Shown here: one piece after another, positions 695 through 21,852 of the stretch
How the letters are laid out: every line of letters begins with the position of its first letter
How positions within the stretch are numbered: position 1 is the stretch's first letter
Assembly: GCF_030209445.1 (NCBI RefSeq)
Contig: NZ_JARVSD010000013.1
Location: forward strand, 1-64,000
Direction of reading: 5' to 3'
Source: Promicromonospora sp. MEB111
Lineage (GTDB): Bacteria > Actinomycetota > Actinomycetes > Actinomycetales > Cellulomonadaceae
DNA: 64,000 nucleotides
Notes under the pieces: model-generated
Seen by the model: only the letters and a program-made list of their open reading frames with translations
Told to the model about the DNA's origin: nothing
The model's database searches: none
Translations under genes and position numbers: made by a program

Positions 695-1738
695 TCAGCC
701 GCGCGACGCGAGCACCTCCGCCCGGCCCTCCGCGCGGGCCCGCTCGATGAGCCGGTCCAGCCGCGACCGGCGCGCGCGGAGCGCCCGGCGCACCGCCCAG
801 CCGACCAGCACCAGCGCGAGCAGCACCAGGGCGTGCAGCAGCGGCAGCGCCCAGGCGGTGTCCGTCAGGACGACATCGGCGGGCGCGGGCACGTCGCCGC
901 CGGCCGCACCCTCGGCCACGGTGGCGCCGACGACGGCCTCGACGCCGAACGGCCCGAGCGGCCAGACCCCCGGCACCTCGACGCTGATCTCACGCCGTCC
1001 GCCGGGCAGCACCTCCAGCGCCTCGCCGCGCGGCGCGGACGCGTGGGGCCCGCCCAGCGCGCTGTCCGCGCCGACCAGCGCTGTGGTGTTCAGCGCGACC
1101 GTCCCGTCGTTCACGACGGCGTACCGCACCACGAGCGACCCGGGCTCGAACAGGCTCGGCCCGTGCAGGAAGGAGACCCCGAGCAGGTCGGCGTCCAGGG
1201 CGGCGACCACGTCCCCCGGTACCCGCAGGTTCACGCGGACGCCGACCCTCGACTCCACCTGCATCTCCCCGCCCGAGCGCACCGACGCCGCGACGCCGGC
1301 CGGGTGGTCGCCGGGCAGCGCGTCGGCCGGCGCCGCCACCTCGACCGACACCACCTCGGTCTCCCCCGGCCCCACCACGACCTCGTCGGGGACGGCGATC
1401 CACGCGCCGCCGTCGACCGGCTCGACCGCGGAGGGCCGCATGTCGAAGCTCCCGCGCTCGGTCAGGTAGCCGTCGTTGGCCGACAGCGCGAACGTCACCT
1501 CCTCCGCCGAGTGGTTGCTCACGGCCACGTGCTCCGTCGCCCGCGCGCCGGGGGCGAGCTCCAGGTCGACGACGCGGCGCCCGTCCGGCCCCGCGGCGTC
1601 GGCGGGCACGACGGACCAGGTGACCCGGCCGTCGTCGGCGGCGGCAGGAACGGGCGCGGCGAAAGCCGGCGCCGGCCAGGCGGCCGGCACGAGAATGGCG
1701 AGGGCGAGGATCGCCGCGACCTTCGTGGGGATGCGCAT
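695..1738 (-). CDS. Secreted, membrane-anchored DUF916-like (WxL-partner type) surface protein
   Basis: 347 aa. Start chosen at the ATG with AGGAAG about 8 nt upstream, immediately before a clear signal peptide (MRIPTKVAAILALAILVPAA, cleavage near AFA-AP). The ectodomain is beta-rich. Its pattern 'VVDLELAPGARATEHVAVSNHSAEEV' followed by GPGETEVVSVEVAAPA matches the immunoglobulin-like fold seen in DUF916, the peptidoglycan-binding partner of WxL proteins. One transmembrane helix lies near residues 297-317 (LLHALVLLALVLVGWAV), followed by a basic cytoplasmic tail of about 30 residues. It is the last gene of the minus-strand operon and follows the WxL-like gene. Likely role: a membrane-tethered surface protein holding or displaying its neighbour. 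The family call is by pattern only; a generic DUF11/NEW3-like domain is the alternative. Confidence 0.6.
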   Translation of the reverse strand: MRIPTKVAAILALAILVPAAWPAPAFAAPVPAAADDGRVTWSVVPADAAGPDGRRVVDLELAPGARATEHVAVSNHSAEEVTFALSANDGYLTERGSFDMRPSAVEPVDGGAWIAVPDEVVVGPGETEVVSVEVAAPADALPGDHPAGVAASVRSGGEMQVESRVGVRVNLRVPGDVVAALDADLLGVSFLHGPSLFEPGSLVVRYAVVNDGTVALNTTALVGADSALGGPHASAPRGEALEVLPGGRREISVEVPGVWPLGPFGVEAVVGATVAEGAAGGDVPAPADVVLTDTAWALPLLHALVLLALVLVGWAVRRALRARRSRLDRLIERARAEGRAEVLASRG

Positions 1739-1770
1739 GCACGGATCTTCCTGGCTCGGTCGGTTCGGAC

Positions 1771-1820
1771 GACGTGCCGGACGCACAGATCACCCGGGTG
1801 ACCTGCGCGTCCGACACGTC
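1771..1820 (-). other. 50-nt intercistronic palindrome / RNA hairpin
   Basis: Two 25-nt arms (1771-1795 and 1796-1820) are inverted copies agreeing at 22 of 25 positions, centred on cccggg. All three differences become G-U pairs in the minus-strand transcript, so the RNA can form an almost continuous stem of about 23 bp. It lies 5 nt after the stop of the WxL-like gene and 33 nt before the start codon of the DUF916-like gene. No U-tract follows, so it may be a processing or stabilising element or an attenuator rather than a simple terminator. Confidence 0.6.
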
Positions 1821-1825
1821 GGGGA

Positions 1826-2461
1826 TCAGCCCTCGAAGAGGGACAGGGTCAGCACGGAGGAGTAGTCGCCCGGGGCCACGTCCGCCGGGGTGCGCAGCGT
1901 GAGGTCCGCCGTGACGTCCCAGGGGCCGGCCTCGGAGCCCGCGGCCCACGTGGACAGCAGCAGCTCCTGCCCCTCCAGGCCGACGGCGGCGCCGCCCGAC
2001 CCGTCCGGGAGCACGCTGGACACGGGCTCGCCCGCGGCCACGTCCCCCGACGGCGACGGCGTCAGCAGGCGCGGCGCCCACCCGAGGTACTCGGGCCCGA
2101 TCGGGTCCCGGCCCTCCGCGGTGAACTCGCTCGCCTGGCCCACGACGGCCCAGTACGAGCCCTCGGGCACGTCCTCGGCGTCCCGGGTGTCGGCGACCGT
2201 GACCGTGGGCAGGGTGCCCAGGAACTGGCGCGCCTCGGCGTCGGAGCCCTCCTCGGCCAGGACGACGCCGTCGTTCGGCGCCACCGAGAGCGTCAGCGCG
2301 CCCGGGGTGTTGTCCTCGATGGACACGGACAGGTCGACGCCGGCCTCGTCGCCGTCGGCGGCCGTGGCCGTGCCGGCGGTGGCCGCGAGCGCGCCGACCG
2401 TCGCGACGGCCAGGCCCGCGGCGGCCGCCGCGATCCGCTGGGTGGTGCGGTGGTTCTTCAT
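1826..2461 (-). CDS. Secreted WxL-domain-like surface protein
   Basis: 211 aa. The ATG at 2461 follows a GAAAGAGAAGAGACGAC stretch and opens a signal peptide (MKNHRTTQRIAAAAAGLAVA, cleavage near TATA-ADG). The mature protein is acidic. It has DLSVSIEDNTPGALTLSVA near its start and ends with a WDVTADLTLRTP strand, then PGDYSSVLTLSLFEG. The 'W-x-V-T' strand and the C-terminal 'Y-S-x-x-L-T-x-x-L' strand resemble WxL domains, which bind peptidoglycan non-covalently in Firmicutes. A DUF916-like gene follows, as WxL proteins usually have. It sits downstream of three secreted polysaccharide-related genes in the same direction. WxL membership is inference from pattern and context; the classic second Trp-x-Leu is not strict here. 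Confidence 0.55.
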   Translation of the reverse strand: MKNHRTTQRIAAAAAGLAVATVGALAATAGTATAADGDEAGVDLSVSIEDNTPGALTLSVAPNDGVVLAEEGSDAEARQFLGTLPTVTVADTRDAEDVPEGSYWAVVGQASEFTAEGRDPIGPEYLGWAPRLLTPSPSGDVAAGEPVSSVLPDGSGGAAVGLEGQELLLSTWAAGSEAGPWDVTADLTLRTPADVAPGDYSSVLTLSLFEG

Positions 2462-2502
2462 GTCGTCTCTTCTCTTTCGTGGCGGTTCCAGGTCAGGTGC
2501 GG

Positions 2503-4464
2503 TCAGGAGCAGGAGATGGCCGGGACGGTGAGGTCGTGGCGCACGGTGACCTCCTCGCCGTCGACCGTGCCGGTGGCGGTCACCGAGGCGGTGCCCTCGG
2601 GCACCGACGCGGCACGCGTGGCGAACGACTGGTACGCGGCATCGCCGGGCTCGACGCCTGCCATGGACCGCGTGCCGTGCTCGGTGGTGAGCACGACGTC
2701 GACCGGGACGTCCGAGCCGTTGACAACTCGGACGGCGACGTGCGCTTTGCCCGCCACGCAGCGGGCGGACGCCTCCGCCGTGACGGGCAGGTCCGCCCCG
2801 GCGGCCGGGAGCGTCAGCGAGCGGCGCTCCTCGGCGTTGCCCGCCGTGTCGGTGGCCGCGAACTCGATGACCTGCTCGGTCTCCGTCAGCGCGCGGGTGA
2901 ACGGCCCGGTGTAGGTGCCCCAGAAGGTGCCGGGGCCCTCCCACTGGATGCGGTCGACGCCGGAGCCGGAGCCGGAGCCGTCGGTGGCTGCCAGCGTGAT
3001 CTCGACGCTCGCGCCGAGGTTCTCCACGGACGCCGTGGTCACGGGCGCGGCCGAGTCGACGCGCAGCTCGCGCTCCGCCTCGCCGGTGTTGCCCGCCGCG
3101 TCGGTCGCCGTCGCGCGCACCGTGTGCGTGCCGTCCTCCAGCGTGAACGGCCCGGTGTACGGCTCCGGGTCGCCGCCGTCGAGCGCCACCTCGACGCGCG
3201 GGTCCGGGTCTCGGTTGTCGGTCGCCCGCACGGTGACCGTGACGGGCTCCAGGAACCAGCCCGACGGCGCGGCGGCCGGCGCGGTGGTCACCGTGACCGA
3301 CGGCGGCGCCGTGTCCTCGGCCTCGTCGGGCTCCAGCACGAAGACCACGGCCTCGGCGGGCACGTCCGTGCCCTCGACCGCGCCCGCCACCAGGAACAGG
3401 CCGCCGGCCTCCGCGTAGTCGGCGGGGTCGACGTCGGCCCAGGCGACCGGGATGCGGCTGTCGCGCGACCCGTCCTCGTACTCCGCCGTGACGGCGGGCG
3501 GCAGCACGGGTGCGACGCCGGCGAGGGTCACCACGGCGACGTTGTCGACCCCGACCACGGCGCCGGGCGCGCCGTCGCGCACGTACACCGTGCCGGTCAC
3601 GGGCTCCACCAGGTCGGGCGAGGTGCCCGTGACCTCGAACGAGCCGGGCTCGGCCACGGCGTCGGCCGTCACGTCCGCCCAGGTCACCGGGACGCGGACG
3701 ACCCGGCCGTCCTCGTAGACCGCGTCGAGCCGGTCCGGCAGCTCGGGCAGCTCGCCCACCTGCGTGGGGATGTGCACCGGGGTGTGGTCGATCGGGCCGA
3801 ACGGGTCCTCCGGCTCCGGCTCGACGGTGCCGCCGGTACCCCAGACCTCCCACTCGGAGACACCGACGGCCGAGTAGGAGTTCTCGGCCCCGCCCCGCAG
3901 GGCCTGGAACGTGGCCCGCAGCCGGGTGGTCTCCACGGGTTCGAAGCTGGTCTCGTTGACGCCGAGGCGGTCGGTCGGGAACCCGCTGGGTGCGGGCAGG
4001 TCGACGAACTCCCCGGCGTCCTCGTCCCAGTACTGGATGGTCCAGGAGGCGGGGACGCGCACGTTGTCACCGTTGGCGTCCGCGCCGTCGGACCAGAACC
4101 GCAGGGCCGACCGGTCGACGCGGACCGGTGCCTCCCACGTGTACTCGAGCCACTGGCTCGCCGGGCGCGGGTCCTCTCCCCAGGTCGCCCACGTGGCGTC
4201 GTGGGCGCCGCCCGTGCTGACACCCGCGCCGTCGTTCACCGCGGTGACGCGGTTCCAGGAGGCGGTGTAGCTGGCGGTGGGTACCGCCAGCGGTGCGACG
4301 TTGGCGGGTTCCGCGTCCGCGGCCGCGGCGGGCACCAGGCCCGTGGAGGCCGGTACGAGGCCCGCCAGGGCCAGGACGAGCACCCCGACGACGGCGGCGG
4401 CACGGCGCGCCCGAGCCCGGCGCCCCAGTGCCCAGCGCCCGGGGGCTGTGCGTGTGGTCGTCAT
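2503..4464 (-). CDS. Secreted multi-domain discoidin/Ig-like protein without a recognised catalytic domain
   Basis: 653 aa. The ATG overlaps the stop of the upstream GH127/146 gene (ATGA), so translation is probably coupled. A long basic Tat/Sec-type signal region covers about residues 1-50. Next come an F5/8-type-C-like domain (about 53-205; NVAPLAVPTASYTASWNRV to SEWEVWG), two bacterial Ig-like group-4 repeats (about 220-390; each with a YEDG motif and a WADV strand), an Ig/HYR-type domain with TVRATATDAAGN, and a second one with FAATDTAGN. The last 90 residues form a module starting near ARCVAG and ending AISCS. No glycosidase catalytic motif is visible. It may bind polysaccharide or the cell surface and help the two glycosidases encoded upstream. 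Function unproven. Confidence 0.75.
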   Translation of the reverse strand: MTTTRTAPGRWALGRRARARRAAAVVGVLVLALAGLVPASTGLVPAAAADAEPANVAPLAVPTASYTASWNRVTAVNDGAGVSTGGAHDATWATWGEDPRPASQWLEYTWEAPVRVDRSALRFWSDGADANGDNVRVPASWTIQYWDEDAGEFVDLPAPSGFPTDRLGVNETSFEPVETTRLRATFQALRGGAENSYSAVGVSEWEVWGTGGTVEPEPEDPFGPIDHTPVHIPTQVGELPELPDRLDAVYEDGRVVRVPVTWADVTADAVAEPGSFEVTGTSPDLVEPVTGTVYVRDGAPGAVVGVDNVAVVTLAGVAPVLPPAVTAEYEDGSRDSRIPVAWADVDPADYAEAGGLFLVAGAVEGTDVPAEAVVFVLEPDEAEDTAPPSVTVTTAPAAAPSGWFLEPVTVTVRATDNRDPDPRVEVALDGGDPEPYTGPFTLEDGTHTVRATATDAAGNTGEAERELRVDSAAPVTTASVENLGASVEITLAATDGSGSGSGVDRIQWEGPGTFWGTYTGPFTRALTETEQVIEFAATDTAGNAEERRSLTLPAAGADLPVTAEASARCVAGKAHVAVRVVNGSDVPVDVVLTTEHGTRSMAGVEPGDAAYQSFATRAASVPEGTASVTATGTVDGEEVTVRHDLTVPAISCS

Positions 4465-6773
4465 GTCATGTCCGCCTTTCCCGCGGTGAGCAGGACGCGC
4501 TGGGCGTCCCGGCGGCTGAGCAGGCCGTCGGCGACGAACCGCTCCGTCGTGCGCTGCACCTGGGCGAGGAAGGCCGCCCGGGTGGCGAACCCGCCGTCGG
4601 CCCAGACCGCGTCGAGCAGGGTGGTGCCGTCGGGGCGCGCCGCGTTCGCGACCCCGCTGTCGAGGCCGGCGAACACGACGCGGGGCTCCGCGCGGCGCAC
4701 GTACATGTGGTAGTTCGTGTGGTCGCCGGACCACGCGGGCTCCAGGACGCGGTCCCCGAGCCGGAAGTAGCCGTCGCCGGTCGCCTCGAACGCGCTGTCG
4801 AGCGTGCCGTCCAGGCCCATGTGCCCGTAGAGGGAGATGTCCAGGTAGCTCGTGGCGGCGTCGCGCACGAGCAGCACGGTGGGTCCCCACTCGATGCTCT
4901 GCACCGCCGGGTCGTCGATGGTCGGCACGGCCCGGACGCTGAACGGCATGTCGACGTCGACCACGTCGCCGGACGCCCAGGTGCGGGCGACGCTCACGTA
5001 CGTGCCGGGGATGGCGTCCACGTCCTGGGCGACGCCGTTGACCTTGACGGCGAAGCCCTGGCGCACCCAGCCGGGCACGCGCAGGCGCAGGTCGAGCTCG
5101 CCCGTGCCCTCGATGGTCAGGCGGGTCGAACCCGCCTTCGGGTACTGCGTCTCCTGGACCACGCGCAGCCCGCGCTCGGGCCAGTCCAGCGTCGAGGCGA
5201 GGTAGAGGTTGACGTGCAGGGCGGCGCCGTCGGCGGACCGCAGGTACACGGTGTCGGCGTACTTGACGTGGTTCTCCAGCCCGGTGCCGCCGCAGCAGGT
5301 GCCGGTGTTCCCGTACTCGCGGCGGGTGCCGGGGTTCACGCCGTACATGTAGGTGACGTCGGGGCTGGTGTCCGACCGGGTGTTCCGCTTGGAGCCCACG
5401 ATGTGGTTGAGCAGGCCGCGCTCGTAGAACTCCATGTACCTGGGGTCGAGCGTGTGCAGGTACAGCAGCCGCGACAGCTTGAGCATGTTGTACGTGCCGC
5501 ACGTCTCGGCGTTGCGCGCGCCGATGTCGCCCGCGACGGTACCGGGCGGGCCGAACAGCTCGCCCTCCCCGTGGCCGCCGTGGGCGTAGGTACGACCGGG
5601 CACGACCATGCCCCAGAAGCCCGTGACGGCGTCCAGGTACCGCTCCTCGCCGGTGTGCTCGTAGGCCTTGAGGTAGCCGGGGAACTGCGGGATGTGCTGG
5701 TTGGCGTGCTTGCCGTTGAGCGTGTCCCGCCCCTCGGCGCAGGCGTCGACCAGCGGGGTCAGGTCGAACTTCCGGGCCGTGGCGAGGTACTTGTCCTCCC
5801 CCGTGATCGACGTGAGGTCGCAGAGCACCTCGTTCATGCCGCCGTACTCGCCGGCGATGTAGATGCCCCACATCCGTTCGAGCTGGTCGGCGGGCAGCGG
5901 GTCGAGGCGGCCGGAGACCCAGTCCGCCATGGCGGCCCAGATCTCCAGCGCCTGGTCGCTGGCGGCGAGCTGGTAGGCGTCCCGCAGGCCCGCCATGATC
6001 TTGTGGCACGTGTAGTAAGGCGCCCAGATCTCGCCGTACGGCGCGTAACCCTCCAGCCGGCTGAACTGCCACTCCCCGTACGCGGCGAGGAAGCCCGGGT
6101 GGGTGAACCGGCCCATGGCGGCGAGCGCGGCCTGGACCTCGCCCAGGCCGGCGACGACCTGGTCCACCTTGTCCTGGAACACCTGCTCCCCGGTGGACGC
6201 CCACGCGAGCGAGAGGGCGGACAGGAAGTGGCCGCCGTAGTGGCCCCGCAGCAGGTTGGCGGTCTGCACGTTGGCCCGGCCGGGGTAGTCGTCCGGACCC
6301 CAGGGCTGCTCGTTGGCGTGGCCGAAGCCCTCCCAGCCGCCCGGCGGGTTGGCGCCCCGGGTGTCCAGGCCCGCGTTGCGGCGGAAGACCGCCAGCACCC
6401 GGTCCACGGGATAGACCCGCAACAGGTGCAGCAGCTGGTCCTGCGACCGGGTGGCCACGCTGGGCGCGAGGCTCACGTCGGCCAGCGGGAACGGCGTGGC
6501 CAGCCAGCGGTCGGACGCCGGCGACCGGTCCAGCAGGCGCAGGTACCGGCGCGGCAGCCGGGCGGCGGCCGCGGCCAGGCCGGTCCCGGCGGGGCCGGCC
6601 CCCAGCGGGGCGGCCGCGGCCGCCCCGCCGGCGAGCCCGAGGGCGGCGACGCCCCCGGCGAGGCCGGCCGCCCCGAGACGGAGCAGGGACCGGCGGGAGA
6701 CGGCCGACGTGCCTGGTGCGGCCCCCGCCGTGCCCGGCGCGGCGTCCGGCGTGCTCTTCGGTTCGCTGTGCAT
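4461..6773 (-). CDS. Tat-secreted beta-L-arabinofuranosidase, GH127/GH146 superfamily (DUF1680)
   Basis: 770 aa. The ATG at 6773 is preceded by AAGGGAG. The N-terminus carries a twin-arginine signal (SRRSLLRLGAAGLAGG). The (alpha/alpha)6 core includes ANLLRGHYGGHFLSALSLAW. The zinc/thiol site of this superfamily is present: Glu423 and Cys425 in NAETCGTYNMLKLSR, then adjacent Cys493-Cys494 in TGTCCGGTGLENHVKYAD. In characterised GH127, one of the paired cysteines is the nucleophile and Glu/Cys residues hold Zn. The NAETCxTYNMLKL and GTGLENHxKY wording resembles GH146 rather than the HypBA1 type. It should remove terminal beta-L-arabinofuranose outside the cell. It lies 14 nt after the giant glycosidase gene and overlaps the next gene by 4 bases. 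Confidence 0.87.
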   Translation of the reverse strand: MHSEPKSTPDAAPGTAGAAPGTSAVSRRSLLRLGAAGLAGGVAALGLAGGAAAAAPLGAGPAGTGLAAAAARLPRRYLRLLDRSPASDRWLATPFPLADVSLAPSVATRSQDQLLHLLRVYPVDRVLAVFRRNAGLDTRGANPPGGWEGFGHANEQPWGPDDYPGRANVQTANLLRGHYGGHFLSALSLAWASTGEQVFQDKVDQVVAGLGEVQAALAAMGRFTHPGFLAAYGEWQFSRLEGYAPYGEIWAPYYTCHKIMAGLRDAYQLAASDQALEIWAAMADWVSGRLDPLPADQLERMWGIYIAGEYGGMNEVLCDLTSITGEDKYLATARKFDLTPLVDACAEGRDTLNGKHANQHIPQFPGYLKAYEHTGEERYLDAVTGFWGMVVPGRTYAHGGHGEGELFGPPGTVAGDIGARNAETCGTYNMLKLSRLLYLHTLDPRYMEFYERGLLNHIVGSKRNTRSDTSPDVTYMYGVNPGTRREYGNTGTCCGGTGLENHVKYADTVYLRSADGAALHVNLYLASTLDWPERGLRVVQETQYPKAGSTRLTIEGTGELDLRLRVPGWVRQGFAVKVNGVAQDVDAIPGTYVSVARTWASGDVVDVDMPFSVRAVPTIDDPAVQSIEWGPTVLLVRDAATSYLDISLYGHMGLDGTLDSAFEATGDGYFRLGDRVLEPAWSGDHTNYHMYVRRAEPRVVFAGLDSGVANAARPDGTTLLDAVWADGGFATRAAFLAQVQRTTERFVADGLLSRRDAQRVLLTAGKADMT

Positions 6774-6787
6774 GGTGCTCCCTTCCG

Positions 6788-14800: not shown

Positions 14801-14999
14801 CGTCACGCTCACCACCCCGTACGGCACGCGCTCGTTCACGGACGTCGCGCCGGGGCGGGTCGCGTACCAGTCGTTCGCGGTCCGCGCGGCGCGAGCCGAC
14901 GCGGGCGCCGCGGTGGTGCGGGTGACGGGCGAGGTCGACGGCGAGCGGGTGACCCGCGAGGTCGAGACGGAGTACCCGGCGGTGAGCTGCGGCGGCTGA
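11865..14999 (+). CDS. Secreted GH43 alpha-L-arabinofuranosidase-type enzyme with discoidin, Ig and C-terminal modules
   Basis: 1044 aa. The ATG at 11865 follows TGGAGGACGAC and opens a signal peptide (MRQVRAGRPAAAGTLVAVLA, cleavage near ASA-AD). The five-bladed GH43 domain covers about residues 35-370. Candidate catalytic residues are Asp55 (YYSADPAPLV), Asp197 (HNIDPTVLVDG, pKa modulator) and Glu248 (GFFEAPWLFERNGTYYLAYA, acid). Next come an F5/8-C-like domain (NIAQEARVTVSNDPVPTQYW on), an Ig-like group-4 repeat, two Ig/HYR-type repeats with TATDRAGN and YRAVDRAGN, a second F5/8-C-like domain (GNVAALATPTASYTAGWN), and the shared C-terminal module (RCLAG to AVSCGG). In hyp clusters a GH43 (HypAA type) removes the terminal alpha-arabinose of extensin oligosaccharides. 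The enzyme class is well supported; the exact substrate is inference. Confidence 0.82.
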   Translation: MRQVRAGRPAAAGTLVAVLAAALSVPAAPASAADSYEFTSTQNPILADGSYYSADPAPLVVPAGAPGNDTGADQLYVYTGHDEAGETRNDFIMNEWGAFVTADPDAGRWTHHPSLMRPEDVFDWASPGRAYAGEVQEGLDGRYYWYVPVHEAASPSSDKFGIGVAVSDSPTGPWTDHAGGPIVSQRLPTPNTIHNIDPTVLVDGAGADARVFMYWGSFGNLRRVELAQDMRTPVGDVRTVTGLTGFFEAPWLFERNGTYYLAYAGNNAGPTSACTPANYHACIAYATAPSAEGPWTYRGTILRPVSSTTSHPGIVELDGQWWIAYHTADAEGGNHFRRSVAIDKVEWDDTQDPPRMLPVTTTPVRQPDRTPRANIAQEARVTVSNDPVPTQYWVKALNDEVVRPNPLPPDMWGTWTGNNPPQQWVQYTWDQPVRVSGSQIDFWNDQPRGSGVGVAAPDAWRIQFWDADDGSWADVPGADGYPAGTAGFQSTSFDPVTTTQLRAVFDASTNGSTYSAVAVEEWEVLAEQAETVTPPRLTVEVGETDLPGTVRAAYPGGESLQVPAYWDALTADDVAEPGSLTVEGSVLGYAAGRVTATVTVVDPGDTSGDETAPEVTLTPSGSTGTGGWFRSAVRVRVAGTDDGGGRVTLATSVDDGEPVVTDPVRYTDVEVGGDGEHTVTATATDRAGNTSAEAALDVRIDATAPRSTATVDEQARSVAVTAADATSGVARIEVAVDGGGFEPYSGAVSAPDGDRHDVRYRAVDRAGNVETARTVTISADLSGPLTGNVAALATPTASYTAGWNSVLALNDGLDPASPPQAQIWGTWSGDHPATQWVQYTWPRPIRLTAAEIKFWADQPQGTGAGVGEPDSWELSYWDEAAQDWAPVPEPSAAGTSTAAFNRMTFGPVTTSRLRATVHANGDGTQYAAVAATEWRVLADDPGTGSPASPAVTVTAEVRCLAGSATLAVRAVNDHDGPVDVTLTTPYGTRSFTDVAPGRVAYQSFAVRAARADAGAAVVRVTGEVDGERVTREVETEYPAVSCGG

Positions 15000-15248: not shown

Positions 15249-15325
15249 GAAGTGCGCTTCCACCCAGTCACTGGGCCCGGATCCATGGCGTTTTCGGGCG
15301 CGATGACTGGGTAGAAGCGCACTTC
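15249..15325. repeat. Palindromic intergenic element, copy 2
   Basis: The left arm 15249-15270 and right arm 15304-15325 are 22-nt inverted copies with one mismatch. Their arm sequence is nearly identical to copy 1, and the loop again starts gggcccgg. It ends 51 bp before the convergent GH127 stop. The 376-bp gap 15000-15375 holds these two elements; the 140 bp between them shows nothing recognisable. Confidence 0.7.
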
Positions 15326-15375
15326 GATGCGGTGCCGGACAGCAGCCGCGACGGGCGGGGCGCAGTCGGGTGCTG

Positions 15376-17373
15376 TCAGAGAGTCGGGAGCCAGACGCGC
15401 ATCGTGGCCGGGCCGCGGTTGGCCCAGTCGTGGTACGCGACCAGCGGCACGTCGTGCAGCTCGGGGCGGGGCCGCGGTGCGACGTCGTCCGCCGCCGTGT
15501 AGGGCCAGCCGGCACCGTTGCTGTCACCAGCACCAGCACCAGCACCGTCACCAGCACCCAGTACGCCCGCGCGGACGTACACCGTGCCGTCCACCTCCCA
15601 CGGCGGGACCGCGGTGTCGACCACGACGTCGTCCACGCCGCGACCGGTGCCGCCACGAGCACCAGCACCAGCACCCAGCTCGACCGCCGCCAGGTCCACC
15701 GACTCCAGGCAGAGCACCTCCGGGCCGCGCTGCACCGCGACGCAGCCGCGGACCGCGTCGATGTGCGGATCGGGCACGACGAACCGCGGGGCGGCGTCGA
15801 TGTCGAGCACCACCACGCCGCCCGTCCGCGGGCCGGGCACCGCGACGAGCCCGGGACCCACCTCGCGGACGAGCCCGTCGTCCACCCGTACCCGGGCCGA
15901 CGCCGACCACGCGGGCACCCGCAGGGTGAGCGTCCAGTCCCCCGCGGGCGCGGCCACGACGCGCACCTCGACGCGCCCGTCGGCCGGGTAGTCCGTGACG
16001 ACGTCGAGCTCCACCCGCTCCCCCGACGGCAGCTCGGCCCGGATCTCGGCGGGGGCGTACTGGTGGAGCTGGACCCCGCCGTCGTCCACCGTGGCGACGT
16101 ACGCCGCGAGGCTCGCGAACGTGCGCGCCACGTTGGGCGGGCAGCACGAGACCTCGAACCACGGGGCGCGCAGCGACGCCTCGGCGCGCTTGCTCACCAC
16201 GTCCGTGTCCACGTGCTCGGCCGGGACGCGCTGGTGCAGGGTGTTCGCGTAGAAGAACGACTGACCGTCGTGGGCCGGCGAGGTCGCGACCACGTTGGTC
16301 AGGGCCCGCTCGATCGCGTCGGCGTACTCCACACCACCGCGGGCCAGCAGCAGGCGCCACGACACCATGACCGAGCCGACGCTCGCGCACGTCTCCGAGT
16401 ACGCGCGGTCCGGGGGCAGCACCCAGTCGTCGCCGAACGCCTCGTCCTGGTGGTGCGAGCCCTGCCCGCCGGTCACGTACGTGCGGCGGGCCTGGGCGCG
16501 CGCCCACTGGCCGGCGACTGCGTCGAGCAGCTCGGTGTCGCCGGTCTCGACCGCCACGTCGACCGCGCCGGCGGCCAGGTAGTTGGCGCGGACGGCGTGC
16601 CCGTGCAGCACCTCGGACTGCCGCACCGGCACGACGTCCTGGTAGTAGGAGCGGCCGAACTCGATGTCGGCGAGCACGCCGTGCCCGTGCCGCTCGACGA
16701 ACAGCGCCGCCTGCGCGAGGTACCGCGGCTCGCCGAGCGCCCGGCCGAGCTCGGCCAGGCCCACCTCGACCTCGGAGTGCCCGCAGATCCCCTGGTTGCC
16801 GTCCGCTCCGAACGTCGCGCACACGTGGTCGGCGCTGCGCCGGGCGACGTCGACCAGGAGGTCGTCGGCCCGGCCGGTACGCGCCCGCGCGGCCGCAGCC
16901 TGGAAGAGGTGGCCCTGGCAGTAGAGCTCGTGGCCCCACTCCAGGTCCGTGTAGCGCGGCTGCTGCCCGGGACGGCCGAACCGCGTGCCGAGGTAGCCGT
17001 CCGGCTCCTGGGCGGCGGACACCCGGAGCACGATCGCGTCGAACCGGCTCTGCAGGTCCTCGTCCGGCCGTCGCCCGAGCTCCCAGGCCATGGCCTCCAG
17101 CAGCTTGTACACCTCGGAGTCGCTGAACTCCCGGCCGCGCCGCTTCTCGGCCAGGCCGCCGGAGACCGCCAGGTCGAAGTTGCCCAGCCAGCCCTCGCGC
17201 TCGAGCCAGTGCTCGATGTGCGCGAGGGTGGCGGTCGCGTTCACCTCCTGGCGGCGGGCCCAGGGACCCCCGGTGATGCGCACCTGGTCGAGGCCGAGGG
17301 GGGTCAGGCGCCCGGTCGAGGGCACGACGGGCGCGGGCGTGGCGGCGCCACGGTGTCCGGTCGGGAAGAGCAT
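15376..17373 (-). CDS. Cytoplasmic GH127 beta-L-arabinofuranosidase (HypBA1-like)
   Basis: 665 aa. The ATG at 17373 follows CCGGAGGTCTCCGC. No signal peptide is present, so the enzyme should act in the cytoplasm on imported oligosaccharide. The GH127 zinc/thiol site reads YSETCASVGSVMVSWR (Glu327, Cys329) and VSCCPPNVARTFASLAAYV (Cys410-Cys411), which is very close to the characterised HypBA1 pattern with Cys nucleophile and Zn ligands. It also has LEWGHELYCQGHLFQAA. Family length is about 650 aa, so it is complete. A glycine/alanine-rich stretch (GAGAGARGG and GAGDGAGAGAGD) near the C-terminus is coded by CACCAG hexamer repeats. It is the last gene of the importer operon, 49 nt after the second permease. 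Confidence 0.9.
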   Translation of the reverse strand: MLFPTGHRGAATPAPVVPSTGRLTPLGLDQVRITGGPWARRQEVNATATLAHIEHWLEREGWLGNFDLAVSGGLAEKRRGREFSDSEVYKLLEAMAWELGRRPDEDLQSRFDAIVLRVSAAQEPDGYLGTRFGRPGQQPRYTDLEWGHELYCQGHLFQAAAARARTGRADDLLVDVARRSADHVCATFGADGNQGICGHSEVEVGLAELGRALGEPRYLAQAALFVERHGHGVLADIEFGRSYYQDVVPVRQSEVLHGHAVRANYLAAGAVDVAVETGDTELLDAVAGQWARAQARRTYVTGGQGSHHQDEAFGDDWVLPPDRAYSETCASVGSVMVSWRLLLARGGVEYADAIERALTNVVATSPAHDGQSFFYANTLHQRVPAEHVDTDVVSKRAEASLRAPWFEVSCCPPNVARTFASLAAYVATVDDGGVQLHQYAPAEIRAELPSGERVELDVVTDYPADGRVEVRVVAAPAGDWTLTLRVPAWSASARVRVDDGLVREVGPGLVAVPGPRTGGVVVLDIDAAPRFVVPDPHIDAVRGCVAVQRGPEVLCLESVDLAAVELGAGAGARGGTGRGVDDVVVDTAVPPWEVDGTVYVRAGVLGAGDGAGAGAGDSNGAGWPYTAADDVAPRPRPELHDVPLVAYHDWANRGPATMRVWLPTL

Positions 17374-17421
17374 GCGGAGACCTCCGGGAAGTGGTGGACG
17401 GGCTGAGCGGCGCACGGGCGG

Positions 17422-18315
17422 TCAGCCCTTGAGCGCGCCGGACATGAACCCGCGGACGTAGTGCCGCTGGAGCAGGAGGAACAGGACGACGCACGGCAGG
17501 GCCATGACGACGACGCCGGCCTCGGTGGCGCCGTAGTCGACGATGCCCATGACCTGCGCCCGGAGGTTCGCCACGGCGAGCGGGAGCGGGATCTTGGTGG
17601 AGTCCGAGATGAGGATGAGCGGCGCCACGAAGTCGTTCCACGCCGCCAGGAAGGCGAACAGGCCGACCGTGATGATCCCGGGCTTGACCGCCGGGAGCAG
17701 CACGGTGCGCAGCGCGCGGAACGACGAGCAGCCGTCCACGAGCGCGGCCTCGTCCAGCTCGCGCGGGACGGCGTCGAACGAGATGCGCATCATGAACGTC
17801 GCGAACGGGAGCTGGAACACCGTGAGCACGAGTGCCAGGCCGACCAGCGTGTTCTGCAGCCCGATCGCGTTGAGCATCACGTACAGCGGGATGAGCAGCG
17901 TGGCGTACGGGACCATGAGGATCGCGAGGGTGAGCAGGAACAGCACGTCGCGGCCCGGGAACTTGAACCGGGAGAACGCGTAGCCGCCCAGCACGGACGA
18001 GACGAGCGTGAACAGCACCGTCATCCCGGACACCAGCGTGGAGTTGAGGAGGTACTGGGGCAGCCCGGCCTGGTACTCCATGAGGGTGGCGTAGTTGCCC
18101 AGCCCCCAGCCGTCGACCTGGCTGCTGCCGGGCTGGGGCGCGACGGACGCGACCCCGGCCCAGATCAGCGGGAAGACGAAGACGAGCGCGAGGGCGCCGG
18201 TCAGCACCCAGTACGGGGTGCGCAGGGCGATCCCCGCGAGCCGGGCCCGGGGCGCGCGCGGCCGGCGCCGCACCTGCGGCCGGGGCGGGCTGGCGGGGAG
18301 TGCGGTCGTTGTCAT
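17422..18315 (-). CDS. Sugar ABC transporter permease, MalG/LplC type
   Basis: 297 aa inner-membrane subunit. A basic cytoplasmic N-terminus precedes six predicted helices, the first being WVLTGALALVFVFPLIWAGV. The EAA loop that contacts the ATPase reads DEAALVDGCSSFRALRTVLL. The C-terminus ends RHYVRGFMSGALKG, typical of MalG-type permeases. It starts 1 nt after the stop of the partner permease. It should import the arabino-oligosaccharide bound by the lipoprotein encoded upstream; substrate is inferred from the flanking GH127 and secreted enzymes. No ATPase gene is in the operon. Confidence 0.92.
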   Translation of the reverse strand: MTTTALPASPPRPQVRRRPRAPRARLAGIALRTPYWVLTGALALVFVFPLIWAGVASVAPQPGSSQVDGWGLGNYATLMEYQAGLPQYLLNSTLVSGMTVLFTLVSSVLGGYAFSRFKFPGRDVLFLLTLAILMVPYATLLIPLYVMLNAIGLQNTLVGLALVLTVFQLPFATFMMRISFDAVPRELDEAALVDGCSSFRALRTVLLPAVKPGIITVGLFAFLAAWNDFVAPLILISDSTKIPLPLAVANLRAQVMGIVDYGATEAGVVVMALPCVVLFLLLQRHYVRGFMSGALKG

Positions 18316-18316
18316 G

Positions 18317-19264
18317 TCAGTCCTCCTGGCCTGCGCGCATGGCGCGCATCTGGGCCACGTTCACGACGACGAGCACGACCAGGACGACGATCGACAGCGC
18401 GGCGGCGACGCCGAGGTCGTTCTGGCCCTGGAAGGCCACGTTGTAGATGAGCTGGACGACCGTGAGCGTGCTGTTGTCCGGCCCGCCCTTGGTCAGGATG
18501 TAGAACTGGTCGAACGCCAGCAGCGAGCCGGTGACGCACAGCACCGTGCACAGCGCCAGCGACGGGCGCAGCAGCGGCAGGGTCACGCTCACGAAGGTCT
18601 GCCAGCGGTTGGCGCCGTCCATGCGAGCGGCCTCGATCACGTCGTGCGGGATGCCCTGCAGCCCCACCATGAGCAGCAGCATGTAGAAGCCGGCGAACCG
18701 CCAGACCACCAGGAACACGGTGGACCAGAGCGCGCTCTCGGGGGTGCCGAGGAACGACACCGGCCCGTCGGCCAGCCCCAGGCGCTGCAGCAGCGGGGAC
18801 AGCGGGCCCACCTGGGGCGAGTACAGCGCGTAGAAGAGCAGCGACGCGGACGCGAGGCCGAGGGCGCTGGGCACCAGGATCGACGTGCGCAGCACCGCGG
18901 ACCAGCGGCTCGACTCCTGCACCAGGAGCGCGAGCCCCAGGCCGAGCCCGATGAGCAGCACCGTGGCGATCACCGTGTACTTCAGCGTGAAGACCACCGA
19001 GTCCCAGAAGAACCGGTGCGTCAGCGCGTCCACGTAGTTCTGCGGGGCGTTGATCCCCTGGTTGCCGGCCAGGAGCGGCCAGTCGGAGAGCGACATCTGA
19101 CCCACCAGCAGCACGGGCAGCACGAACAGGCCCACCACGAGCAGGGCGGTCGGCGCGGCGTAGGCCCAGCCGTGCAGGGCACGGCGGCGCGCGACGGCGA
19201 CGACGGCGGGCCGGGTAGGCGGACGGGTGGAGGTTTTCGCGGGCACGGGAGGCTCCTTGTTCAC
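18317..19264 (-). CDS. Sugar ABC transporter permease, MalF/UgpA type
   Basis: 315 aa with six predicted membrane helices. The EAA loop is DVIEAARMDGANRWQTFVSV. The MalF-type sequence LAFDQFYILTKGGPDNST follows. A GGAGCC purine stretch lies upstream of the ATG at 19264, and the gene is 73 nt after the binding protein. It forms a heterodimeric channel with the next gene product. Part of the minus-strand arabino-oligosaccharide import operon. Confidence 0.92.
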   Translation of the reverse strand: MNKEPPVPAKTSTRPPTRPAVVAVARRRALHGWAYAAPTALLVVGLFVLPVLLVGQMSLSDWPLLAGNQGINAPQNYVDALTHRFFWDSVVFTLKYTVIATVLLIGLGLGLALLVQESSRWSAVLRTSILVPSALGLASASLLFYALYSPQVGPLSPLLQRLGLADGPVSFLGTPESALWSTVFLVVWRFAGFYMLLLMVGLQGIPHDVIEAARMDGANRWQTFVSVTLPLLRPSLALCTVLCVTGSLLAFDQFYILTKGGPDNSTLTVVQLIYNVAFQGQNDLGVAAALSIVVLVVLVVVNVAQMRAMRAGQED

Positions 19265-19337
19265 ACGGCGAGTTCACGGGCCGCGTGGTCCCGCCGCCCG
19301 GTGCGGCGGCGGGACCACGCTGACGTCGGCGGGGCGG

Positions 19338-20642
19338 CTACTGCCCCAGCACGGCGGTGATCTCCTCGTTGTCCGGCTCCACGGTGCCGCCGGGCCCGAA
19401 CACCTCGTTGCGGATCATGGTCATCCACGGGCTGCCGGGGGCGTTGAACGCCTGCTGGAAGTTGATCGCCAGCGGGGTGCGGCCCTGCGCCGCGACCTCG
19501 TTGACGGCCAGGACCCGCGGGTCCTTCGACGAGTACTCGTTCTCCGCCAGGTCGGCGCGCGAGACCACGTCACCGTTCTTGGCGAGCACCTCGACCTGTG
19601 CCTCCTCCGACATCAGCCAGGACATGAAGTTCCAGGCCTGGTCGGCGTTCTCCGAGTCCTTGGAGATGCCGATGCCGTCGCCGCCCACGAAGGTGGACGC
19701 CCCGCCGTCGGGCCCCGGGATGGGGGCGACGCCCACCTCGCCCAGCGCCTCGTCCGCGGTGGCGAGCATGGTGGCCGGGAACGGCATCACACCCACCTCG
19801 CCCTCCAGGAACGGCCCGGTCCAGGTGGCGCCGGTCTCCTCCTTGGAGCCCTCGCCCACGGCGTCGGAGTCCACGAGGTCCTTCCAGACGCCGTACACCT
19901 CCTGGGCCGTCTCGCCCGCGAGGAGCGACTCCGTGCCCTCGGCGTTCATCACGTCCTCTCCCCCGGCCCAGATCTGGGGGAACCACGTGAACACGAGGCA
20001 GCCGCCGCAGTTGCCGCCGAAGTAGGTGCCGTTGACGTTGCCGCCCAGCTCGTCGACGGCCTTGGCCTGCTCGGAGAACTCGGCCAGCGTCGTCGGCCCC
20101 TGCTCGGGGTCCAGGCCGGCCTGCTCGTAGAGGTCCTTGTTGTAGAACATGACCGAGACGTCGAGCACGAACGGCAGCACGTGCTGCCGGCCGTCCAGCG
20201 TGCCCCCGGCCAGGTGCCCCTGGTTGATCTGGTCGGCGTGGTCGAGCTCTGCGATCGCGTCGGTCACGTCGGCGAACAGGCCCTGCTGCACCCAGTTGGG
20301 CACGTACACGATGTCGGCGGCGAACAGGTCGGGCAGGCCCCCGCTGCCCGCGGCGGCGCCGACCTTGGCCACGTAGTCGTCGTTCGGCACGACCGTGAGC
20401 TCGACCTGGTTCTCGTGCGACGCGTTGTACGCCTCGACCAGCAGGTTCGCCTGCTGCTCCAGCGGGGCGCGGGTCCAGAGCGTGAGCTCGGTGCCGTCGT
20501 CGACGCCCTCGGCCGAGACCTGTGCCTCCTGCGTGCCTCCGTCGCCGTCCGACGCGCTGCAGGCGGCGAGCGCCGTGCTCGCCAGGCCGGCCGCGAGGAA
20601 CGAGGCCACGAGCCTCGCGCTCGCCCTGCGGTGGGTAGCCAT
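19338..20642 (-). CDS. Sugar-binding lipoprotein of an ABC importer (family 1 extracellular solute-binding)
   Basis: 434 aa. Two adjacent ATGs (20645 and 20642) follow AAGGAGACGG; the second has the better spacing. The signal peptide ends in a lipobox, LASTALAACS, so Cys is lipidated and the protein tethered outside the membrane. The mature chain has typical family-1 motifs: ELTLWTRAPLEQQANLLVEA, DLFAADIVYVPNWVQQGLF and AWNFMSWLMSEEAQVEVLAK. First gene of the operon with two permeases and a cytoplasmic GH127, divergent from a LacI gene. Substrate is predicted to be beta-L-arabino-oligosaccharide by context only. Confidence 0.9.
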   Translation of the reverse strand: MATHRRASARLVASFLAAGLASTALAACSASDGDGGTQEAQVSAEGVDDGTELTLWTRAPLEQQANLLVEAYNASHENQVELTVVPNDDYVAKVGAAAGSGGLPDLFAADIVYVPNWVQQGLFADVTDAIAELDHADQINQGHLAGGTLDGRQHVLPFVLDVSVMFYNKDLYEQAGLDPEQGPTTLAEFSEQAKAVDELGGNVNGTYFGGNCGGCLVFTWFPQIWAGGEDVMNAEGTESLLAGETAQEVYGVWKDLVDSDAVGEGSKEETGATWTGPFLEGEVGVMPFPATMLATADEALGEVGVAPIPGPDGGASTFVGGDGIGISKDSENADQAWNFMSWLMSEEAQVEVLAKNGDVVSRADLAENEYSSKDPRVLAVNEVAAQGRTPLAINFQQAFNAPGSPWMTMIRNEVFGPGGTVEPDNEEITAVLGQ

Positions 20643-20701
20643 CATCCGTCTCCTTGACTTCGTCGTCACTCGGCCGTTCGACGAGGATGAGATACCCGTT
20701 G

Positions 20702-20797
20702 CCGAAACCGTCCGAAAAGGCTTTCTGCGACTGTAGGGTGGGCGTGCCACCGCGTCAAGGACGAACCTTCGTCACGTTTGTGTTACACCTTTTCGGT
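20702..20797. promoter_or_regulatory. Candidate operators with CCGAAA boxes in the SBP/lacI divergent promoter
   Basis: CCGAAA occurs at 20702-20707 and 20712-20717 (10-bp step) and in inverted orientation at 20791-20796 (TTTCGGTACT). The first pair matches the pair at 11770-11785 before the GH43 and GH121-like genes. The region sits between the binding-protein start (20642) and the LacI start (20830), as expected for an autoregulating local repressor. Function is inferred. Confidence 0.55.
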
Positions 20798-20829
20798 ACT
20801 GTTCGACATCGACACTCCAGGAGGAAGCC

Positions 20830-21852
20830 ATGGCCTCGGGCGAAACGCCGCGCAACGCCACGCTGACCGACGTCGCCCGCCTCGCGGGCGTCTCGATCGC
20901 CACCGCGTCCAAGGCGATCAACGGTCGCGCCCAGGTGCGCGCCGAGACCCGCACCCGGGTGCTCGAGGCCGCCGAGCAGCTCTCGTTCGCGCCCAACGCG
21001 CTGGCGCGCGGGCTGCTCCAGGGCCGCACGGGAACGGTCGGCCTGCTCACGTCCGACCTGGAGGGCCGCTTCTCGATCCCCGTACTGATGGGCGCGGAGG
21101 ACGCCTTCGGCGCCGGCCAGGTGTCGGTCTTCCTGTGCGACGCGCGGGGGGACGCGATCCGCGAGCAGCACCACATCCGCGCACTGCTGTCCCGCCGCGT
21201 CGAGGGGCTGATCGTCGTGGGCTCGCGCACCGACCCGCGCCCGCCGCTGGCCGGCGACCTGCCGGTGCCCGTGGTCTACGCGTACGCGCCGTCCGAGAAC
21301 CCCGAGGACATCTCCATCACGGCCAACAACGTGGAGGCCGGCGGACTGGCGATCGACCACCTGATGGCGTGCGGACGCCGGAGGATCGCCCACGTGACGG
21401 GCGACGCCTCCTACGCGGCGGCGCAGGACCGCAGCCGCGGCGCGGAGCGCGCCATGGCGGAGGCCGGGCTGGAGCTCGTGGGCGGCCGCACGTTCTTCGG
21501 GTCGTGGAGCGAGGGCTGGGGCCGTGGGGTGGCGGCCATGATCCTGGACCAGTACCCGGACGTCGACGGCTTCTTCTGCGGCAGCGACCAGATCGCCCGG
21601 GGCGTGCTCGACACGCTGCGCGAGTCGGGCCGCGACGTGCCCCGGGACATCTCCGTGATCGGGTTCGACAACTGGGCCGTGCTCACCACGAACACCCGGC
21701 CGCAGCTGACGAGCGTCGACATGAACCTGGAGCAGGTGGGCCGCGTGGCCGCGCGGCGGCTGTTCGAGGCGATCGAGGGACAGGCGGCCTCGGGCATCGA
21801 GGAGCTACCGTGCCGCATAGTGACCCGGGAGTCGTCGGTCCCGGTCCCGTGA
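20830..21852 (+). CDS. LacI-family transcriptional regulator of the arabino-oligosaccharide locus
   Basis: 340 aa. The ATG follows a strong AGGAGGAAGCC site. The N-terminal HTH reads ATLTDVARLAGVSIATASKA, followed by the hinge helix NALARGLLQ. The periplasmic-binding-like effector domain contains TVGLLTSDLEGRFSIPVLMG, HVTGDASYAAAQDRSRG and DISVIGFDNWAVLTTN. It is divergent from the importer operon, and shared CCGAAA boxes suggest it also controls the secreted enzyme genes. Expected to be a repressor released by an arabinose oligosaccharide or a related sugar. Confidence 0.92.
   Translation: MASGETPRNATLTDVARLAGVSIATASKAINGRAQVRAETRTRVLEAAEQLSFAPNALARGLLQGRTGTVGLLTSDLEGRFSIPVLMGAEDAFGAGQVSVFLCDARGDAIREQHHIRALLSRRVEGLIVVGSRTDPRPPLAGDLPVPVVYAYAPSENPEDISITANNVEAGGLAIDHLMACGRRRIAHVTGDASYAAAQDRSRGAERAMAEAGLELVGGRTFFGSWSEGWGRGVAAMILDQYPDVDGFFCGSDQIARGVLDTLRESGRDVPRDISVIGFDNWAVLTTNTRPQLTSVDMNLEQVGRVAARRLFEAIEGQAASGIEELPCRIVTRESSVPVP

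Follow-up and report, generated by a model that had tools for sequence, protein, structure and literature searches.

Does the locus at positions 695-21852 give Promicromonospora sp. MEB111 a hyp-type pathway for plant cell-wall arabinose, and what are the surface proteins encoded beside its enzymes for? The window, the whole stretch of DNA analysed, spans 64,000 nucleotides (GCF_030209445.1, contig NZ_JARVSD010000013.1, positions 1-64,000, forward strand). Hydroxyproline-linked arabinose chains are described, in the excerpts available, on plant extensins and lectins; among the literature matches listed, also in excerpt, the full three-enzyme hyp set has been characterised from one bifidobacterium and one Xanthomonas only. 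Because actinomycete homologues of hypBA2 and hypAA have already been mentioned (PMC6085000, in excerpt), the locus type is not new. We compared gene content and gene order, catalytic residues, conservation and the enrichment of operators, and asked how often an unnamed tail domain (Ctd) occurs together with a WxLIP-like protein.

Layout of the locus

The locus has two arms. The first comprises GH121, a GH146-type enzyme, a non-catalytic modular protein, a small secreted protein and a WxLIP (DUF916), with GH43 divergent; the second comprises a binding protein, two permeases and an intracellular GH127, with LacI divergent.

695..1738, minus: WxLIP-like membrane protein; signal peptide, PF06030 PGBD, C-terminal transmembrane stretch, basic tail; start placed by eye
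1826..2461, minus: small secreted protein, 211 aa, WxLIP neighbour; WxL-like by motif only
2503..4464, minus: secreted non-catalytic protein; F5/8C-like, Big_4, Big_13/CHB_HEX, Ctd
2506..2781, minus: Ctd of the non-catalytic protein (alignment A4; 132.6 bits)
4461..6773, minus: predicted secreted GH146-type beta-L-arabinofuranosidase; PF07944 E=7e-79, best PDB match 5opj E=2e-76
6788..11530, minus: predicted GH121-type beta-L-arabinobiosidase; catalytic part, F5/8C, PKD, F5/8C, Big_4, Ctd
6791..7069, minus: Ctd of GH121 (alignment and profile score; structure model pLDDT 96.8)
9377..9379, minus: Glu736 codon (P0001 numbering), equivalent by alignment to HypBA2 Glu713
10040..10042, minus: Asp515 codon (P0001 numbering), equivalent by alignment to HypBA2 Asp515
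10391..10393, minus: Glu398 codon (P0001 numbering), equivalent by alignment to HypBA2 Glu383
11716..11727, no strand: operator-like site GCAATGGTTTTC in the GH43/GH121 divergent promoter, 2 mismatches to GAAAANNTTTTC
11862..14999, plus: secreted GH43, HypAA-like; F5/8C-like, Big_4, OmpL47-type repeats, Ctd
14718..14996, plus: Ctd of GH43 (alignment and profile score)
15376..17373, minus: predicted intracellular GH127 beta-L-arabinofuranosidase; PF07944 E=8e-72, motifs DEAFG, SETCAS, CCPPN
17422..18315, minus: ABC permease 2 (PF00528)
18317..19264, minus: ABC permease 1 (PF00528)
19338..20645, minus: sugar-binding protein; PF13416/PF01547, lipobox-like LAAC by eye, 50% identity to the bifidobacterial hyp-cluster protein
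20714..20725, no strand: LacI-type operator-like site GAAAAGGCTTTC between the binding protein and LacI
20830..21852, plus: LacI-family regulator (family match; comparison with the bifidobacterial hyp cluster)

The first-pass annotation had placed the GH146-type and giant enzymes in one operon with GH43 divergent, which is what we find. Of the second operon that it proposed, the binding protein, permeases and GH127 (ETCAS and CCPPN motifs) belong together at 15376-20645, minus strand, and LacI does not, being divergent and outside it. The genes that it named have coding-type GC3 and family matches; 1826-2461 and 2503-4464 were missed by GC3 selection and are called from translation and conserved relatives. 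An open reading frame at 1826-3853 (minus strand) was rejected as a single gene, its upstream part being an out-of-frame translation of what is truly the gene at 2503-4464. The extra secreted and surface proteins that had been announced are present (695-1738, 1826-2461, 2503-4464); they had been left without identities, and are the least expected part of the locus.

Three other genomes of the genus carry the whole locus in the same gene order (4 of 13 including its own), so this is not a chance arrangement. For wider comparison, the best 80 of 379 relatives by scan, i.e., those nearest the window, yielded 79 fetched actinobacterial loci, 76 of which hold the window-type GH121 clade after exclusion of three with less than 55% identity. 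Twelve of these 76 loci, being under 19 kb, were set aside; the remaining 64 (at least 19 kb) held GH43 in 48, GH127 in 50, the binding protein in 49 and LacI in 46; within these stretches GH43 was not found in 16/64 and GH146 not in 40/64.

Enzymes, importer and operators

The giant protein (1580 aa from the likely ATG) matches HypBA2 (PDB 6M5A) over residues 86-862 at E=1.2e-104, covering the catalytic region, as compared to a marginal match of about 80 residues to GH142 BT_1020 (E=1.9e-12), and we thus rejected its assignment as a GH142 or RG-II enzyme. Profile comparison places it with HypBA2/GH121 and not in a family of other sugar specificity, and the earlier suggestion of a divergent GH121-related group is borne out: its score to the HypBA2 equivalog model NF041578 (557.6 bits) is far under the 3200-bit cut-off, and it belongs to a deep clade of its own, with a very long branch between this clade and HypBA2 and 32-35% identity to the latter. 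The bifidobacterial-type GH121 copy of another genome (G563) likewise falls under that cut-off, at 2871 bits. Three conserved acids, E383, D515 and E713, are described for GH121 (PMC7263609, in excerpt), and all are kept in the window protein. Across 84 window-clade rows from 80 distinct genomes (four being double: L009=L063, L011=L064, L161=L079, L162=L129), E383 is kept in 82 (one R, one gap), while D515 and E713, like P437, G438 and W443 (HypBA2 positions), are kept in all 84. The Ca2 site of HypBA2 has been described, in the excerpt available, as essentially conserved across GH121; in 84/84 window-clade rows D505 is replaced by A and D532 by E, the other three positions being N or D in nearly all. 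This change in a non-catalytic feature is a reason to call the group a divergent clade and, taken with the long branch, suggests that its specificity may differ from that of HypBA2.

The GH43 has as its best solved relatives proteins labelled xylosidase/arabinofuranosidase (143 bits). When the bifidobacterial hyp-cluster GH43 was used as query against the genome's own 9 GH43 loci (from a listing of 10 matches, two of them in one gene of contig C11), the window gene scored 193 bits versus 63 for the next, and by these relative scores a purely xylan-type enzyme is disfavoured; we take GH43_22 to be the HypAA subfamily. The GH146-type enzyme has GELFG, AETCGT and CCGGTG motifs, a twin-arginine signal by eye, the DUF1680 catalytic domain (PF07944) and best PDB matches to 5opj, 8k7y and 8k7x, presumably all GH146 structures. 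No signal peptide was seen in the GH127, which in alignment with HypBA1 (3wkw) keeps E322, E338, C340, C417 and C418, numbers that we take to denote the active-site positions of this cysteine glycosidase. With bifidobacterial HypBA1 as query, its nearest relative in the genome is a GH127 on contig C9 (316 bits) and not the window copy (231 bits). The genome also encodes AraA.

LacI, the binding protein and the permeases are 49-56% identical to their bifidobacterial hyp-cluster counterparts and stand in the same order (LacI, binding protein-permease 1-permease 2-GH127), and LacI is likely the counterpart of BauR1. No importer ATPase is encoded at the locus. The operator motif was derived from the LacI/binding-protein upstream regions of these loci, which overlap, so its enrichment there (43/54 LacI upstream regions at no more than one mismatch; 52 hits versus 1.2 expected) is not independent, and the GH121 upstream regions provide a partial check: 33/78 at no more than two mismatches (36 hits versus 4.2 expected), just 6/78 at one. 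GH43 upstream regions were not enriched (0/17 at one mismatch, 1/17 at two). In the genome itself, CGAAAANNTTTTC at no more than one mismatch was not enriched either (6 matches in 5 places versus 4 in the backwards control), so the operator claim rests on site position and enrichment in relatives. A third operator-like site sits within an unrelated gene.

The tail domain and its WxLIP-like neighbour

GH121, GH43 and the non-catalytic protein share Ctd, a 93-residue, two-cysteine domain at the extreme C-terminus; among 97 full-length copies, 93 end no more than two codons from the stop and four at eight codons. Pfam has no name for it, its model is a plain seven-strand beta domain, and a structure search against the PDB returned nothing at E<=0.001. 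The WxLIP-like protein matches PF06030 just above the cut-off (E=2.2e-6; 28.1 bits versus 27.3), all 21 aligned rows of its relatives match that family at E<=0.01, and it has a weak profile match (E=0.006) to EfmWxLIP1 (9i25/9i1y); the DUF3324 host-binding domain is absent from the six families matched by those 21 rows at E<=0.01. The small protein has conserved DTR...W-x-V and C-terminal LTLSL motifs (27 aligned rows), and no WxL family was among the matches of these rows up to E=10, its motifs being W-x-V and L-x-L rather than W-x-L. It had no Pfam match and no match in a PDB profile search. Its structure model (pLDDT 75) matched the same glycosidase twice at E<=0.001. Several pilin subunits with incomplete Ig folds were also matched, weakly and at low TM, which may hint at strand exchange and is not evidence for it.

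By gene order and co-occurrence across genomes, Ctd is tied to the small-protein/WxLIP pair, with exceptions. A local WxLIP occurs in 36/55 loci with Ctd versus 0/9 without. A genome-wide search covered 37 genomes, comprising 20 with Ctd and no local WxLIP, 13 without Ctd and four positive controls with a local WxLIP; a WxLIP was found elsewhere in 19 of the 20 (17 above 300 bits, 16 above 340) and in 7 of the 13, none above 281 bits. Across 396 genomes of the phylum, six WxLIP places scored above 300 bits, and each of the six has a Ctd gene no more than 3 kb away; the 300-bit line was set after the data were seen, and related genomes are not independent. The exceptions are two genomes with Ctd and no detected WxLIP (L117 and G355), one (G269) in which the only WxLIP detected is about 2 Mb away from the three Ctd, and more distant WxLIP in 37/390 genomes free of Ctd.

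Probable substrate, proposed surface display and known systems

GH43, GH121, GH127, an ABC importer and LacI are united in one locus, as in hyp clusters. We consider it probable that this is a hyp-type system of actinobacteria, directed at beta-L-arabinooligosaccharides linked to hydroxyproline (extensin-type glycans). The first-pass annotation had proposed this same pathway, and content, order and identity agree with it, the substrate itself being inferred. Outside the cell, GH43 would remove the capping alpha-1,3-arabinose from Ara4-Hyp to leave Ara3-Hyp, from which GH121 would free beta-1,2-arabinobiose; the secreted GH146-type enzyme may take the last arabinose off hydroxyproline. The arabinobiose would be imported by the binding protein and permeases, assuming a shared ATPase, and cleaved by the intracellular GH127 to L-arabinose for the AraA pathway. 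LacI would act on GAAAANNTTTTC-type operators to repress the importer arm and probably the enzyme arm as well. At the surface, the Ctd of GH121, GH43 and the non-catalytic protein could dock to the small secreted protein, itself held by the membrane-anchored WxLIP, a proposal to which we give nearly even chances. Substrate, step order, regulation and docking are all read here from comparative evidence.

One could instead envision the same genes serving another glycan, with GH121 and GH127/GH146 acting on beta-L-arabinofuranosides of AGP, arabinan or RG-II. The long branch between GH121 clades, the labels on the GH43's solved relatives, the match of the GH127 to the aceric acid hydrolase model (305 bits, under the 950 cut-off) and the report that a bifidobacterial GH146 strips beta-1,3-Araf from AGP and arabinan (PMC10850190, in excerpt) are consistent with this. 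However, the importer arm and LacI resemble the hyp cluster in identity and order, the hyp-cluster GH43 clearly picks out the window gene, the GH142 similarity is marginal, and a scan of ten locus proteins turned up no further enzyme for RG-II or AGP, so that we regard another glycan as rather improbable.

For the surface proteins, there are two alternatives to docking. The enzymes might be freely secreted, as in Xanthomonas, with the importer scavenging arabinobiose: the window's three Ctd C-termini show neither a transmembrane nor an LPXTG-like end, and XeHypBA2 and XeHypAA have no anchor region (PMC6085000, in excerpt). Or Ctd may be unrelated to the small protein and WxLIP, a spacer or carbohydrate-binding Ig-like domain beside an adjoining surface system of other purpose, as its plain fold and the exceptions listed above would allow. 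Against both stands the C-terminal position of Ctd, where bifidobacterial HypBA2 and HypAA are reported, in the excerpts available, to have FIVAR-TM/MAR membrane anchors, together with its adjacency to high-scoring WxLIP and their co-occurrence even when the genes are apart. We judge free secretion unlikely, and an unrelated Ctd a somewhat stronger contender, and retain docking as our tentative reading.

The locus resembles the Bifidobacterium longum hyp/Bau cluster (HypAA GH43, HypBA2 GH121, HypBA1 GH127, BauABC, BauR1 LacI) in gene content, importer-arm order, GH121 catalytic acids and the F5/8C and Big_4 domains of the giant enzyme. It differs in that GH43 and GH121 are divergent (both follow GH127 in B. 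longum), GH121 is of another deep clade, Ctd takes the place of the C-terminal membrane anchor, and a GH146-type enzyme, non-catalytic protein, small protein and WxLIP are added. The Xanthomonas euvesicatoria xehypBA1-BA2-AA set has the three enzyme families in common with the window; it is reported to lack the membrane anchor region and to be HrpX-upregulated, and no such surface module is described in the excerpt available (PMC6085000). GH142 BT_1020, an RG-II beta-L-arabinofuranosidase, has a related (alpha/alpha)6 fold according to the HypBA2 paper (PMC7263609, in excerpt), with the sequence match only marginal. The surface proteins recall the Csc/WxL clusters of Bacillota (CscA, DUF916/WxLIP; CscB, small WxL; CscC, large multi-domain with C-terminal WxL2; PMC1534035, in excerpt), for which a role in plant sugar use has been proposed: both have a membrane-anchored PF06030 protein, a small secreted partner and large modular secreted proteins sharing a C-terminal domain. 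In contrast to those clusters, the window belongs to Actinomycetota, its small protein has no WxL model match, its common C-terminal domain is Ctd, also without a WxL match, and its large partners are mostly glycosidases. DUF916 genes also neighbour genes for Ang-2, which is restricted to Actinomycetota (PMC12537917, in excerpt). Among the literature matches listed, available in part (including PMC10599100 and PMC5928203), we came across neither an account of Ctd nor one of GH121 accompanied by a WxL-type module.

The locus points to a wide reservoir in soil- and plant-associated actinobacteria with a distinct GH121 clade, and thus to new candidate enzymes. It is possible, though we hold this a little more loosely than docking itself, that Actinomycetota have a non-covalent, cellulosome-like display in which Ctd binds a small WxL-like protein clamped by WxLIP, the hyp locus being one complete copy that displays a deep-split GH121 clade deglycosylating plant hydroxyproline-rich proteins. 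If the link among Ctd, small protein and WxLIP is true, it would name a surface-display system of Actinomycetota, help annotate many glycosidases with unexplained tails, and provide a direct way to test the role in plant sugar use that was proposed for Csc/WxL clusters in 2006.

Layout of the locus and the GH121 enzyme

The source genome comprises 6.23 Mb in 35 contigs, and the window opens contig C2, with the two arms of the locus within its first 22 kb.

Features of the locus and operator-like sites
695-1738, minus, arm 1: WxLIP-like membrane protein
1826-2461, minus, arm 1: small secreted protein
2503-4464, minus, arm 1: non-catalytic modular protein
4461-6773, minus, arm 1: GH146-type enzyme
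6788-11530, minus, arm 1: GH121
11862-14999, divergent from the minus-strand genes of arm 1: GH43
Arm 2, minus: binding protein (SBP), two permeases, GH127 without visible signal peptide
Divergent from arm 2: LacI
11716 and 20714: operator-like sites, in the two promoters
24917: operator-like site, inside an unrelated gene

Neighbouring minus-strand genes of arm 1 overlap or are separated by only short gaps; gene starts differing from those of the ORF tool were picked by direct reading, from ribosome-binding-like sequence and signal peptides. Arm 2 contains no ATPase gene, and we assume that the importer uses a shared ATPase. Positions 23669-32261 hold genes for gamma-glutamyltranspeptidase, a HAD hydrolase, DUF1177, an OPT peptide transporter and peptidase S51, probably a peptide-use region without relation to the locus.

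The window GH121 scores 557.6 bits against the HypBA2 model NF041578, the cut-off of which is 3200, and matches the HypBA2 structure (PDB 6M5A) at E=1.2e-104, as compared with 1.9e-12 for the GH142 enzyme BT_1020. Of the three acids described as essential in HypBA2 (E383, D515 and E713; excerpt of PMC7263609), E383 is retained in 82 of the 84 aligned rows of the window clade, the GH121 group that includes the window enzyme (the exceptions being one R and one gap), D515 and E713 in all 84, and all three also in 20/20 other aligned GH121 rows. The 84 rows, representing 80 distinct genomes, all retain P437, G438 and W443, and all share two changes at the Ca2 site, D505 to A and D532 to E. A quick ML tree with a midpoint root was built from 48 rows, of which 47 are distinct. 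A single long branch, with 1.89 + 1.0 changes per column on either side of the root, separates 28 window-clade rows from 20 HypBA2-side rows, with SH-aLRT 100 either side; the former are 32-35% identical to HypBA2, the latter 44-72%. In Tessaracoccus coleopterorum (L137) and Phytohabitans suffuscus (L131) the best GH121 segment is partial (457 and 512 residues), and in the former the frame opened at the match start ends after 121 codons, which suggests that it is broken.

Distribution, the importer arm and a candidate operator

Within the genus, 4 of 13 genomes gave GH121 catalytic matches with E below 1e-100, and all four have counterparts of every locus gene; in the phylum, the catalytic region matched strongly in 3 of 396 genomes (G000, G205 and G035). 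G205 and G035 group with HypBA2 in the tree and carry GH121, LacI, SBP, permeases, GH127 and GH146; GH43 catalytic and WxLIP matches were not found within the 30-32 kb taken. With both clades pooled, hits to the HypBA2 model at E<=1e-30 occur in 24/396 genomes of the order. A contig scan gave 379 relatives, and the best 80 of these yielded 79 loci, of which 76 belong to the window clade.

Components in the 64 window-clade loci of at least 19 kb (from the best 80 of 379 relatives; absence means not within the stretch taken)
Enzymes: GH43 48/64; GH127 50/64; GH146 24/64
Importer and regulator: SBP 49/64; permeases 49/64 and 49/64; LacI 46/64; SBP, both permeases, GH127 and LacI all together 37/64
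Other: C-terminal domain (Ctd) 55/64; WxLIP 36/64; small protein 37/64

The bifidobacterial cluster of genome G563, whose GH121 is 72% identical to HypBA2 (2871 bits on its model), is ordered LacI / SBP, perm1, perm2, GH127, GH121, GH43, and the order from LacI to GH127 is common to the window. Identity between the two is 50% for LacI, 50-52% for SBP and 54-56% for the permeases, but 32-35% for GH127 and 33% for GH121. A second set of LacI, SBP, two permeases and GH127 lies on contig C9 of the source genome (locus L061, ~8.9-15.2 kb); the 20 kb taken there gave no match to GH121. This set, with a GH127 that matches bifidobacterial HypBA1 better (316 bits) than the window copy does (231), speaks against simple orthology.

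Regulation was approached through the motif GAAAANNTTTTC: with <=1 mismatch allowed, 43/54 loci have it upstream of LacI (52 hits against 1.2 expected) and 35/56 upstream of SBP. Upstream of GH121 it occurs in 33/78 at <=2 mismatches (36 hits against 4.2 expected) but in only 6/78 at 1 mismatch, and regions upstream of GH43 show no enrichment (0/17 at 1 mismatch, 1/17 at 2). Three such sites at <=2 mismatches (20714, 11716 and 24917) fall within the window's first 26 kb. Matches across the source genome are not enriched over the control (6 versus 4). Taken together, these counts make a common operator likely for the importer arm but do no more than suggest one for the enzyme arm; the would-be bifidobacterial counterpart of the window LacI is BauR1 (PMC5928203, in part).

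The shared C-terminal domain and the WxLIP-like protein

The window GH121, GH43 and non-catalytic protein end in a common Ctd of ~93 residues, in which two cysteines are invariant across 30 aligned rows. Pfam searches of these rows, even at E<=1, gave no family in more than 3/30. The AlphaFold2 model is a confident 7-strand beta domain (pLDDT 96.8); a structure search of the PDB returned nothing at E<=0.001. Among full-length copies in relatives' loci, the domain ends within 2 codons of the stop in 93/97 and 8 codons from it in 4/97. It occupies the place of the C-terminal membrane anchor region described for B. longum HypBA2 and HypAA (excerpts of PMC7263609 and PMC6085000).

The source genome has six Ctd copies, three in the locus and three weaker ones, which are carried by a GH43, a GH92 and a protein resembling pectate lyases. 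Genome G280 encodes 11 Ctd proteins, of which seven were scanned: three GH43 (one barely above its cut-off), one GH127, one GH95, one ThuA/GSDH and one without a catalytic match. In the same genome (L259-L261, C1:1010000-1081900), Ctd-ending secreted proteins (GH43, GH127, GH95 and others) are clustered with two WxLIP/small-protein pairs.

The WxLIP-like protein matches PF06030 in 21/21 rows; DUF3324 was not found. Among the 64 tabulated loci from the best 80 of 379 relatives, WxLIP is present in 36/55 Ctd-positive and 0/9 Ctd-negative loci (Fisher p=0.0003). In genome-wide searches that scored part of the candidates, Ctd-positive loci without a local WxLIP had one elsewhere in 19/20 genomes (>300 bits in 17, >340 in 16), versus 7/13 Ctd-negative genomes (281 bits at most; none found in 6/13). 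Fisher p is 0.008 when any match counts and 1e-6 with a threshold of 300 bits, chosen once the data had been seen. Across the phylum, similarly scored, Ctd at E<=1e-10 occurs in 6/396 genomes, WxLIP at 1e-10 in 5 of these 6 and 37/390 others (p=6e-5), and 6/6 WxLIP places scoring >300 bits have a same-strand Ctd less than 3 kb away. Exceptions to the proposed link are Jiangella muralis (L117) and G355, with Ctd but no WxLIP detected, and G269, where WxLIP is ~2 Mb from the Ctd genes.

Within Micromonospora, the window-clade GH121 of four Ctd-negative loci (L086, L100, L106 and L109) ends in another C-terminal domain, in what looks like a swap of tails. WxLIP scores there are 198 bits, none, 281 and none, respectively, against ~497 each in the Ctd-positive L087 and L099; the Ctd-positive L111 has 206 bits only.

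The small protein adjoins WxLIP in 27/30 fetched WxLIP loci, weak hits counted and four being hyp loci themselves. The source genome has two more distant WxLIP paralogues (C32:250089-250982 and C33:29156-30142), and ahead of each lies a distant relative of the small protein. CscB is described, in an excerpt of PMC1534035, as having D-x-R ahead of W-x-L; the small protein resembles it by motif alone, with DTR, then W-x-V, and L-S-L at its end, and none of the WxL models searched matched. The Csc-cluster parallel is an argument on working mode, not membership. The predicted docking of Ctd to the small protein held by WxLIP, taken alone, has a little under an even chance.

Predicted pathway

The window GH127 retains five active-site positions of HypBA1. 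Among nine GH43 loci of the source genome, the catalytic part of the G563 hyp-cluster GH43 matches the window gene at 193 bits and the next at 63; AraA is encoded on contig C30. The GH146-type enzyme has 5opj and 8k7y as its top PDB matches. Guessing from its family and signal sequence, it would act extracellularly and take the final arabinose off hydroxyproline. The assumed cleavage order is that of characterised Bifidobacterium and Xanthomonas enzymes (PMC6085000, in part), and we consider it fairly probable that the locus serves the breakdown of hydroxyproline-linked beta-L-arabinooligosaccharides. Because an excerpt of the same paper already reports hypBA2 and hypAA homologues in some actinomycetes, we regard this locus type as a variant rather than a new kind.
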